A DNA stretch of 64,000 nt. Source: Methanolobus vulcani. Its GTDB lineage: Archaea; Halobacteriota; Methanosarcinia; Methanosarcinales; Methanosarcinaceae. Positions 56,153 through 60,880 of the stretch are shown piece after piece; the stretch's first letter is position 1; each line of letters opens with the position of its first letter. The DNA is taken from positions 124,001 to 188,000 of the forward strand of contig NZ_VIAQ01000008.1 in NCBI RefSeq assembly GCF_006546655.1, read 5' to 3'. The notes under the pieces were generated by a model. The model was not told where the DNA came from. It did no database searches and saw only the letters and a program-made list of their open reading frames with translations. Made by a program: the position numbers and the translations under genes.

Positions 56153-58465
56153 ATGTCTATAGTCGTATTCACGGAAAAGAACAAAGCAGCTTCCCAGATA
56201 GCAAGTATTCTCAGCGGAGGACACTTTAACAGGGCTTCGGTGGAAAGCATTCCTGTTTATGACTTTAAGATGAACGGCAAAGAATGGAGGATAATGGGTC
56301 TTGCCGGTCACATCATGGGTTATGATTTCCCTGAACAGTTCAACAACTGGCGTGAATGTGACCCTGCAGTACTGCTTGATACTCCTCCTGTGAAGAACGT
56401 AACAAAAAAGCCTTATGCAGCTGCAATTTCTCTTCTTGCAAGCGGTGCCGAGGAAGTTGTCCTTGCGTGTGACTTTGACAGGGAAGGGGAGAATATTGGG
56501 TTTGAGGCAAAGGAAATTTCCGAAAGAGTAGCTTCCCTGCCAGTAAAAAGAGCACGATTTTCATCACTTTCTGCCAGTGAGATAAAGAACGCATTTTCAA
56601 ATCTTGTTGAACCTGATTATAATATGGCAATGTCAGCAGAAGCAAGGCAGATTCTTGACCTGAAGATGGGTGCGGCTTTTACCCGTTTCATGACATTGTC
56701 CGTAAGGGAGAGAGCCCGCACCAAAGGTGTTATTTCAATTGGTCCGTGCCAGACTCCTACATGTGGTTTTGTATATGAAAGGGAGAAGCTCATAAAGAAC
56801 TTCAAGCCAAAGGATTTCTGGAAAATAGAAGCACTTTTCAATTCAAATGGTGCGGATTTCACCGGTGTGCACAGGGCCGGAAACATTCATGAAAAAGAAA
56901 AGGCTGATGAGATATTTGCTCGCATAAAGGATTGCAAGACCGGTCTTGTTGACAGGAAAAGCGTAAAAGAGGCTCGTACCAATCCTCCTTATCCGTTGAA
57001 TACAACTGAATTCCTGAAACGCTCTTCCAAATTCCTTGGTGTAAGTCCTGAGGAAGCTCTGGAGACTGCAGAGCAGCTTTATCTTTCGGGATTTACCAGT
57101 TATCCGAGGACTGAGACTAACAAGTATGCAGATGATTTTGATTTTAAATCCAAACTTGTAGCTTTTTCATCTGGTGTCTATCAGAAATATGCTCTGACAA
57201 TCCTCTCCACAGGTGAGATTACCTGCCGGAACGGAACCAAAGATGGTCATGACCACCCACCTATTCATCCCATCAAAGCAGCTTCAAAAGACGATATTGA
57301 AAAAAGTGTCAGAATGCCTAATGCATGGAAGGTTTATGATTTGATTGTGAGGCATTTCCTTGCAAATCTTATGGGGCCTGCAATATTTGAGAAAACCAGA
57401 TTAGAAATTCTGATTGGTGGCGAGATATTTGATGTAACCGGTTCAATACTGACAAATCTTGGATGGCTTGATGCTTATCCTTTTGAAACTAAAAATGACA
57501 AGTTACTGCCATTAATTGAGGAAAAGGATGAGGTAAATGTAAAGGAGATAAAGAACACCAAGTCCGAAACAACTCCTCCAAAGAGGCTAACTGAGGCTGA
57601 ACTTCTTACTTTGATGGATAAACATGGCATTGGTACCAAAGCTACAGCGCCAAGTCACATTGAAACAAATAAGAAAAGGGGTTATTTTGAGACCAAGGGC
57701 AAGACAATTGCTATTCTGGATACTGGCTTTACCCTGATGGATACCCTGGATGCCACAGTTCCTATTCTTGTACAGCCAGAGATAAGGGCACGTATTGAAT
57801 CTCTCATTCAGGATGTAGAAGATGGGAAAAAATCACTTGAAGCTGCTCTTTCTGAGGGTACAACGCTTATCAAGCAGATGTATTCTCAACTAACATCCAG
57901 TAAGGATGCTATTGCTGCAAGAATGGCAGGTACTATTGTTGATGAGCAGGTTGCAACGGATAAGAAAAACTTTGTAGGCACCTGTCCGGAATGTGGAAGG
58001 ATGCTGCACATGATCAAAACTGAAAAAGGACGTTTTGTAGGTTGTACGGGTTATCCTGAATGCAAGAATACCTATCCTCTGCCAAAAGCAGGTGCCCTTA
58101 CTGTTTTACGTTCTCAGCAGTGCGAAAAAGGTGGTGTTGCGGTGATGAAAGTAGGTAACAAGTATAATTGGGCTGTGGGTATTGGTCCCTGCTTCGCCTG
58201 TGAGCTGGAAAAAAAATGTTTCCCTCCTGAGATTGTAGGCCCATGTCCTGTTTGTGACGGTTCTATGTTCCTTATAACCACGAAAGATTCCCGTTTCCTT
58301 GGCTGTACCAACAGATGTGGGCACACACAATCTGTGCCTAAATCAGGTAGACTTACTATTCTTGATCGACAGTGTGAGCACTGTGGGTGGCGTATACTCC
58401 GGGTCAAAGAGCAAAAACAGGATGCTAGGGAGTTTTGTGCTAACCGGAAATGCTCCGGGAAATAA
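56153..58465 (+). CDS. topA: type IA DNA topoisomerase
   Basis: 770-residue enzyme that relaxes negative supercoils. The Toprim domain (about 1-150) has DFDREGE. The catalytic Tyr317 is in SYPRTET. A core domain ends near residue 590. Four C-terminal Cys4 zinc-ribbon-like modules follow (about 605-770: CPECG...C, CFAC...C, CPVCD...C, CEHCG...C), and they bind single-stranded DNA. Bacterial TopA and archaeal TopoIII-like enzymes share this layout. The second module has an irregular Cys pattern. The gene is monocistronic. Confidence 0.93.
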   Translation: MSIVVFTEKNKAASQIASILSGGHFNRASVESIPVYDFKMNGKEWRIMGLAGHIMGYDFPEQFNNWRECDPAVLLDTPPVKNVTKKPYAAAISLLASGAEEVVLACDFDREGENIGFEAKEISERVASLPVKRARFSSLSASEIKNAFSNLVEPDYNMAMSAEARQILDLKMGAAFTRFMTLSVRERARTKGVISIGPCQTPTCGFVYEREKLIKNFKPKDFWKIEALFNSNGADFTGVHRAGNIHEKEKADEIFARIKDCKTGLVDRKSVKEARTNPPYPLNTTEFLKRSSKFLGVSPEEALETAEQLYLSGFTSYPRTETNKYADDFDFKSKLVAFSSGVYQKYALTILSTGEITCRNGTKDGHDHPPIHPIKAASKDDIEKSVRMPNAWKVYDLIVRHFLANLMGPAIFEKTRLEILIGGEIFDVTGSILTNLGWLDAYPFETKNDKLLPLIEEKDEVNVKEIKNTKSETTPPKRLTEAELLTLMDKHGIGTKATAPSHIETNKKRGYFETKGKTIAILDTGFTLMDTLDATVPILVQPEIRARIESLIQDVEDGKKSLEAALSEGTTLIKQMYSQLTSSKDAIAARMAGTIVDEQVATDKKNFVGTCPECGRMLHMIKTEKGRFVGCTGYPECKNTYPLPKAGALTVLRSQQCEKGGVAVMKVGNKYNWAVGIGPCFACELEKKCFPPEIVGPCPVCDGSMFLITTKDSRFLGCTNRCGHTQSVPKSGRLTILDRQCEHCGWRILRVKEQKQDAREFCANRKCSGK

Positions 58466-58545
58466 TGGCAAATTATAGTTAATCAATCATATTTGATTTA
58501 CTGTTAAATCAGTTTTTCTTGTTTTAACTCCAAACTTGAACAAGC

Positions 58546-58553
58546 CTTATATA
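58546..58553 (+). promoter_or_regulatory. TATA box of the candidate small RNA
   Basis: CTTATATA at 58546-58553, a textbook archaeal TATA element. It is not followed by a gene on the plus strand. It lies about 27-30 bases before the arm that would form the 5' end of the RNA described next. Confidence 0.65.
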
Positions 58554-58573
58554 GGATAAAACCCATGTTATGA

Positions 58574-58692
58574 CTTGGAGACGAATTGTAGACCTGTTTC
58601 CTGATCATTGTCTACTAAAAAATGGGTCAAGCCGATCTACTACCTCCAATATACCTCCAATTTATATCGATTCGTCTCTGCCTCCTTTTTTT
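58574..58692 (+). ncRNA. candidate small regulatory RNA with two anti-Shine-Dalgarno-like motifs
   Basis: About 119 bases between topA and the nitroreductase gene. GAGACGAAT (58578-58586) pairs with ATTCGTCTC (58670-58678), closing the whole molecule. GTAGAC (58588-58593) and GTCTAC (58610-58615) form an inner hairpin. ACCTCCAAT occurs twice (58642-58650, 58653-58661) in the unpaired part, where CCUCC could pair with GGAGG ribosome binding sites. The closing stem is followed by T7 (58686-58692), a terminator. A TATA box sits at the right distance upstream. There is no plausible protein frame. Several Methanosarcina sRNAs act by covering ribosome binding sites; homology to any of them was not tested. 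Confidence 0.6.
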
Positions 58693-58723
58693 GTATCTGT
58701 TTTCTGACAGTTAGCTTATATCC

Positions 58724-59245
58724 TCAAAACTTTTCGCCGTATTTTTCGCTGAAAACCATATCTTCAAGTTCCTTTCGGGATGGACTTTTGCCACTTTCAT
58801 CAGGTTTGCCAATTGCAAGTACTGCCATAAGTTCCAGAGAATCAGGACAATTGAGAATCAAGTTAACTTTATCTGACTGATTCAGGATTTCTCCCAGCCA
58901 TACTGCACCAAGCCCAAGGTCACAGCAGGCAAGCAGCATGTTCTGTATTGCGGCACCGATGGCCTGTATATCCTTTGTTTTGTTGTACATCGTTTCAGTG
59001 TCAAGGTGAACTGCTATTAACAAAGGTGCATTCATGACTATTTCTGAATAATGTGTGCAGCCTGCCAGTTCCTTCATAGTTCCTTTATCCTTGATGACTA
59101 TGAATTTCCATGGCTGGTTATTAAGTCCGGATGGTGCCCATTTTGCTGCTTCAAGTATGGTTATGATGTCTTCATCGTCAACTGCTTCATCTGTGTATTT
59201 TCTGATGCTTCTTCTTGAAAGGATTGTGTCAATTACTTCAGGCAT
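58724..59245 (-). CDS. nitroreductase family flavoprotein
   Basis: 173-residue FMN-dependent oxidoreductase. The N-terminal FMN-binding motif RRSIRKYTDEAV and the WAPSGLNNQPWKFIVI block are clear; the C terminus has GKPDESGKSP. The family reduces nitro compounds, flavins or other electrophiles with NAD(P)H, or F420-independent donors in methanogens. The natural substrate is unknown. The length is normal for the short, dimeric form. It lies after the ilv operon on the same strand, with an 81-base gap before ilvC's end. Confidence 0.88.
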   Translation of the reverse strand: MPEVIDTILSRRSIRKYTDEAVDDEDIITILEAAKWAPSGLNNQPWKFIVIKDKGTMKELAGCTHYSEIVMNAPLLIAVHLDTETMYNKTKDIQAIGAAIQNMLLACCDLGLGAVWLGEILNQSDKVNLILNCPDSLELMAVLAIGKPDESGKSPSRKELEDMVFSEKYGEKF

Positions 59246-60394: not shown

Positions 60395-60880
60395 TTAAGA
60401 ACTCTTCTGTCCTCTTCTAAGCGCAACCTTTCCGGTTCTTACCATTTCCTTAATTCCGAATGGCCTGAGCAACTGTTCGATTGCAGTTATCTTACCGTCG
60501 TCACCAGTCACCTCAATGATCATGGATTTTGAAGCAACGTCAATGATGCGTGCACGGAATATGTCTGCTATCTGCATGATTTCGGAACGGTTTGTCACGT
60601 CTGAATTGACTTTGATCAAAGCCAGTTCTCTATCAACTGATTCCTCTGATTTAAGGTCTGTGACCCTGATCACATCGATGAGCTTGTTAAGCTGCTTTGT
60701 GACCTGTTCCAGTACTTCATCATCTCCCATGACAACAATGGTCATGCGGGAAATTGTAGGATCATCAGTGACTCCTACCGTAAGGCTGTCAATGTTATAA
60801 CCTCTTCTGGAGAACATGCCTGCGACTCTTGAGAGTACTCCATATTTGTTCTCGACCAGAACTGCAAGTGTGTGTCTCAT
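60395..60880 (-). CDS. ilvH: acetolactate synthase small (regulatory) subunit
   Basis: 161-residue subunit with an N-terminal ACT domain ([23 protein letters not shown], about residues 10-32 and on to 75) and the C-terminal ALS_ss_C domain (about 85-158). It stimulates the catalytic subunit and mediates feedback inhibition by valine. The start overlaps the stop of ilvB by 4 bases (ATGA). Confidence 0.95.

Follow-up and report, generated by a model that had tools for sequence, protein, structure and literature searches.

The gap between two convergent genes of Methanolobus raises the question of whether it holds a gene for a small RNA and, if so, how such an RNA would act. In the window, i.e. 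the whole 64,000-nt stretch of DNA analysed here, the two flanking genes, whose names rest on sequence resemblance, and the RNA gene between them are placed as follows.

56153–58465, + strand: ORF for a topA-like DNA topoisomerase, the upstream neighbour of the RNA
58574–58692, + strand: small RNA gene of about 115–120 nt, with a predicted 5′ end a few bases around 58574
58724–59245, − strand: ORF of a nitroreductase-family gene, the convergent downstream neighbour

A preliminary description had proposed that a small RNA is encoded here, transcribed from its own promoter, closed by paired arms and exposing CCUCC motifs; conservation, covariation, a strand test and predicted accessibility give this strong support. 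Judged from sequence comparison, 58574–58692 almost certainly represents a real, conserved and unannotated RNA family. A search of the whole window against Rfam 15 (4227 families) at the gathering cut-off returned three tRNAs only; the region 58480–58760, searched at E up to 10, gave one chance match on the opposite strand, and no family matched six homologue loci. The RNA family is new to Rfam, and the kind of RNA to which it probably belongs, the sRNA that masks ribosome-binding sites, is already known.

The RNA is organised by two helices.

58578–58588, + strand: 5′ arm of the closing stem, pairing with 58668–58678
58591–58599, + strand: 5′ arm of the inner hairpin (GACCUGUUU), pairing with 58620–58628
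58620–58628, + strand: 3′ arm of the inner hairpin (AAAUGGGUC), pairing with 58591–58599
58668–58678, + strand: 3′ arm of the closing stem, pairing with 58578–58588

The closing arms that had been described are present and form 11 bp, one of them G-U. The fold of the single sequence beat shuffled sequences only moderately (z −1.85; 8 of 200 shuffles were equally good), so that the case made from this sequence by itself is weak and comparison decides. Among 16 Methanolobus sequences, 97.7% of the closing-stem cells were paired and double-sided changes affected three pairs; of the inner-hairpin cells, 96.5% were paired. Covariation in related genomes had been named as a check on the proposal, and compensating changes were indeed found in the arms: among 34 sequences from six genera, 97% of the closing-stem cells were paired and 7 of the 11 pairs showed double-sided changes, as did 8 of the 9 pairs of the inner hairpin. 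Taken together, 15 of 20 pairs changed on both sides, in 82 cells versus 25 ± 3.5 in shuffles, and 95.5% of cells were paired versus 41–51% when the partner was slid; this alignment was fitted to the structure model and is biased in its favour, although the closing stem aligns unambiguously. Examples of compensated closing stems are GAGACGAAG/CUUCGUCUC, GAGAUGAAG/CUUCAUCUC and AAGACGAAG/CUUCGUCUU, and on such comparative grounds the stem can be regarded as proven by covariation. The inner hairpin changes its sequence completely between genera while its pairing stays. An internal hairpin had been predicted before, and one exists; however, the GUAGAC/GUCUAC version suggested by the single-sequence fold is disrupted in roughly one half of the relatives, with 72% of its cells paired and compensating changes absent, and 58591–58599/58620–58628 is the conserved one. 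The former could be an alternative fold in roughly one half of the Methanolobus species only. Across the homologues, G-U pairs outnumbered A-C oppositions 47:5, indicating that the + strand is the RNA.

The RNA was found along its full length in 16 Methanolobus genomes by DNA search (alignment A1), and the locus has near-identical counterparts in named Methanolobus species. Searches with the models R1 and R2, combined with reading of the 3′ flank of the nitroreductase gene, raised the count to 26 of the 27 Methanolobus genomes, the exception being G048, in which the contig ends close by. Homologues were also present in five further genera of Methanosarcinaceae: with Methanolobus as g1, these are g2, g9 (which we take to be Methanohalobium), g11, g12 (presumably Methanosalsum) and g14. 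Nearly every homologue is located on the 3′ side of the same nitroreductase gene, which adjoins the RNA in all six genera, and a topA orthologue is found on the upstream side in all Methanolobus loci and in most of the others checked. Genomes outside the training set of R2, among them G057, G072, G107 and G110, were matched beside the nitroreductase gene with E values of about 1e-5 to 1e-13.

The RNA was not seen beside the nitroreductase gene in the genomes read from g13 (six genomes), g7, g10, g5 and g6; of these, g7 is presumably Methanococcoides, g10 Methanohalophilus and g13 Methanosarcina, and the names used here for the absent genera are given on that footing. Model R1 gave no g13 match at E up to 1, and R2 gave one weak g13 match (E 0.008) in an incomplete genome. 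The weak R2 matches were in G100, G155, G169 and G183 (E 0.008–0.07), and R2 gave no convincing match in other families of the order. A 23-base match to Methanosarcina in the DNA search was discarded as mere likeness of the TATA region before a protein gene.

Tandem copies of the RNA occur in two g14 genomes (L057:1501-1622 and 1978-2100; G110:C271:12447-13115), pointing to local duplication as read from these sequences; in L057, a second nitroreductase fragment lies between the copies. Separately, G109 (L059:1501-1599) carries a possible distant paralogue, not beside a nitroreductase gene, in which ACCACC motifs accompany a GCGAACGGGU/ACCCGUUCGC stem.

The signals that would start and end transcription are listed below, together with a conserved element further upstream.

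58505–58526, strand unassigned: conserved upstream element and candidate operator (TAAATCAGTTTTTCTTGTTTTA), nearly invariant in Methanolobus
58546–58553, + strand: TATA box (CTTATATA)
58681–58685, + strand: third CCUCC in the 3′ tail, directly after the stem and before the T-tract
58686–58692, + strand: T7 tract, a terminator-like T-rich run

The TATA box is present where it had been placed, and a TATA-like box lies at a nearly constant 22–27 nt from the closing stem in 37 of 40 homologues; the predicted 5′ end was derived from this distance. The upstream element, also written TAAATCAGTTTTTCTTGATTTA, has the Methanolobus consensus TAAATCAGTTTTNCTTGATTTA, takes a related form in genus g11, and is a single site genome-wide at up to 3 mismatches. 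The genome G044, presumably that of M. psychrophilus R15, carries a homologue of the RNA, whose start would be expected near position 742,830 on the minus strand, in the gap between topA and the nitroreductase gene. From M. psychrophilus R15, 195 intergenic start sites and cold-induced sRNAs have been reported, nine of the sRNAs sharing an upstream ‘cold box’ (PMC5378194). The element at 58505–58526 is a candidate for a regulator site or for the reported ‘cold box’, and the RNA homologue is possibly among the 195 intergenic starts. At the other end, the T7 tract had been described as directly following the closing arm; the tract exists, but the third CCUCC intervenes. T-rich runs of variable length are found in most Methanolobus homologues, and the third CCUCC is kept in most homologues of Methanolobus and g11 and is absent in g9 and g12.

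The 3′ half of the RNA displays two motifs complementary to Shine-Dalgarno sequences.

58642–58650, + strand: anti-Shine-Dalgarno motif 1 (ACCUCCAAU), unpaired probability 0.97
58653–58661, + strand: anti-Shine-Dalgarno motif 2 (ACCUCCAAU), unpaired probability 0.99

The twin CCUCC motifs were thus rightly described as single-stranded and 11 bases apart, each lying within a copy of ACCTCCAAT. Motif 1 reads CUACUACCUCCAAU nearly invariantly in Methanolobus, where the 12–14 nt around it are likewise almost unchanged; motif 2 is degenerate or lost in several relatives, and twin copies are also seen in g2 and g14. Upstream of the tail, 37 of 40 homologues contain CCUCC versus 4 expected from shuffles, with the control words CTCCC, CCCTC, TCCCC and CCCCT reaching 0–3 of 40, and the unpaired probability of CCUCC was mostly above 0.8; in G053, it is lost in the loop. 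The flanks of the seed vary by genus (ACCUCCAAU; ACCUCCUAUACC; AAACCUCCUUAA), with ACCUCC constant. ACCUCC, which is kept in nearly all homologues, is the complement of GGAGGU and the core of the 16S anti-Shine-Dalgarno sequence. The complementarity to ribosome-binding sites pointed out in the preliminary description accordingly holds well beyond the window, the ACCUCC core being unpaired in nearly all homologues.

Comparison showed that the + strand RNA gene, both predicted helices and the predicted unpaired ACCUCC are conserved, and from these we infer transcription, pairing of the seed with mRNAs and the resulting repression. The best reading, and probably the right one, is an sRNA that acts in trans by masking ribosome-binding sites: the features found are a stand-alone structured gene with a predicted promoter (TATA distance, strand asymmetry, covariation) and an unpaired, conserved anti-Shine-Dalgarno seed (37 of 40 homologues). 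Transcription from the RNA's own TATA promoter would begin just 5′ of the closing stem. The stem would tie the ends of the RNA together and the inner hairpin would occupy the 5′ half, so that the 3′ half may be held single-stranded and display one or two ACCUCC seeds. These seeds could then pair with ribosome-binding sites of the form GGAGGU(A) in some of the mRNAs, by which initiation would be blocked.

Three other explanations were weighed. The one that survives best, though it is unlikely, is that the RNA works by sequestration, in the manner of 6S or CsrB, with the repeated ACCUCC as a protein-binding or 30S-mimic element, instead of pairing with particular mRNAs. Sequestration would fit the drift of the flanks between genera, in which only the ACCUCC core and the sequence of the closing stem stay the same, and the finding of no target with extended pairing common to the genera. 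A pairing seed, however, is expected to show what is seen in the 12–14 nt round motif 1 within Methanolobus and in a second, otherwise unrelated RNA candidate that has the same seed (described below), and ACCUCC is exactly complementary to GGAGGU.

It is considerably less probable that the transcript is a short mRNA encoding a small protein or leader peptide. The preliminary description had found no open frame here, which is incorrect: an ATG at 58622 (MGQADLLPPIYLQFISIRL...) opens 30 codons. Of the 16 Methanolobus sequences in the alignment, 15 have it open for at least 23 codons and begin alike (MGQADLLPPI), but as a frame it is not kept in relatives. Non-triplet indels reframe the closing arm in several species (QFVSAS versus TIRLCL), the ATG lacks a Shine-Dalgarno sequence, L016 has no such ATG, and the double-sided changes track base pairs, not codons. 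The shifts of frame against the closing arm, combined with the lack of a ribosome-binding site, make coding unlikely. Least credible of all is a purely cis-acting 3′ end or terminator structure common to the convergent topA and nitroreductase transcripts, since, for all its position in a convergent gap with a T7 at its end, it has a conserved TATA box at a fixed distance 5′ of the stem, a conserved upstream element, a 60–90 nt loop region under sequence constraint and a one-stranded G-U pattern, and is present in g14 loci without topA on the stretch read.

Masking of ribosome-binding sites, the preferred reading, has precedents among archaeal sRNAs. In Methanosarcina mazei, sRNA41 represses ACDS mRNAs by masking their ribosome-binding sites, and loop 2 of sRNA154 holds anti-RBS sequences (PMC5867862). 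Such RNAs had been said to be known in Methanosarcina, and this is right as to the mechanism; the present RNA was not found at the same place in the genomes read from that genus. The present RNA resembles sRNA41 in being an intergenic archaeal sRNA of the same organism family with a proposed action via ribosome-binding sites, but the targets of sRNA41 have been identified and it belongs to Methanosarcina, in which R1, R2 and the same place gave no convincing homologue of our RNA. With sRNA154, which is set beside it here by description, it has in common a stable structure, an exposed anti-RBS sequence and conservation in its genus; sRNA154, in contrast, is a nitrogen-starvation RNA reported to be conserved in Methanosarcina. 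The alphaproteobacterial alpha-r14/NfeR1 and AbcR1/2 RNAs also have redundant unpaired anti-Shine-Dalgarno motifs and sibling RNAs with similar seeds (PMC10746234). NfeR1, however, is bacterial and has three hairpins each with CCUCCUCCC, whereas here one closing stem and one inner hairpin leave ACCUCC in the open 3′ half; the three CCUCCUCCC hairpins that define alpha-r14 (NfeR1) were not found in 58574–58692. Targets are known for few of the sRNAs that act in trans in archaea, and the Methanosarcina examples have been described at genus level. A covarying family spanning six genera, with a seed common to a second RNA, is a defined comparative object whose alignment is ready as the basis of an RNA family model. 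With structure, seed, promoter and candidate operator fixed, broad masking of ribosome sites in archaea becomes directly testable.

As for targets, ATTGGAGGTA was found, besides in the RNA itself, at only one orthologous place in 8 of 8 close genomes, namely the ribosome-binding site of mttP, with which the RNA formed a duplex of −21.8 kcal/mol. mttP is a gene for an EamA-type membrane protein following an mttC-like gene; its name as a methylamine-permease-like permease derives from context and resemblance, its product profiles giving Pfam EamA only and no match in NCBIfam. In the M. psychrophilus group, TTGGAGGTAGTAG is retained at mttP although the RNA there has lost the matching flanks. Comparison of own with foreign RNA–mttP pairs revealed no co-variation (a fraction of 0.987 of the permutations did equally well or better), and when up to one mismatch was allowed, TTGGAGGTAGTAG was not enriched over a reversed control. 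Given the permutation result and the diverged flanks, mttP was rejected as a proven target; going by the sequence match, it may serve as the best target lead in Methanolobus. The same site lies at a winged-helix regulator gene in 3 of 8 close genomes. A search with the g11 flanks found no target site common to the six genomes of that genus; candidates limited to between one and three of them were genes named by sequence as ribosomal protein S11-like, Mtr-subunit-like and mtmB-like.

The GGAGG that precedes the second binding-protein gene (8198) and had been offered as an example of a target did not stand out, with −9.8 versus −9.6 kcal/mol for an arbitrary GGAGG control. The ribosome-binding site of the nitroreductase gene (CCGGAGGTATCGATATG) was also rejected, with a pairing of 8 bp only and a site degenerate or absent in several species. 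The mttP-like gene itself has the ribosome-binding site AAATTGGAGGTAT (L137:1480-1520), in which 13 nt are complementary to motif 2 as it stands in the RNA of the window's genome.

A second, likewise unannotated small-RNA candidate was seen outside the window in the same genome, on contig C15 at about 60690–60830 (L240:1350-1500), opposite pyrI and convergent with pyrBI. It combines a TATA-rich promoter with a GUAGCA...UGUUAC hairpin, the seed sequence UACUACCUCCAAA and a poly-U end, and it has the UACUACCUCCAA seed in common with the RNA at 58574–58692, which supports a function of the seed. By analogy with the AbcR/NfeR precedent (PMC10746234), two unrelated RNAs with one seed would be expected. 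It is conceivable, if rather doubtful, that the two are deeply conserved sibling anti-Shine-Dalgarno RNAs (UACUACCUCCAA) that regulate translation broadly, as AbcR/NfeR do in bacteria; vertical inheritance would have kept them in six genera or more, and Methanosarcina would have lost or replaced them.

TTGGAGGTAGTAA after pyrI was dismissed as a target or sponge, the opposite strand reading as the second small RNA. The test of own against foreign partners at the pyrI place gave a permutation fraction of 0.004, a signal that comes from the likeness of the two seeds, not from pairing, and that phylogeny inflates. Of 24 Methanolobus genomes, most retain the pyrI-side candidate, whose seed is doubled in G061, tripled in G058 and lost in the M. 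psychrophilus group.
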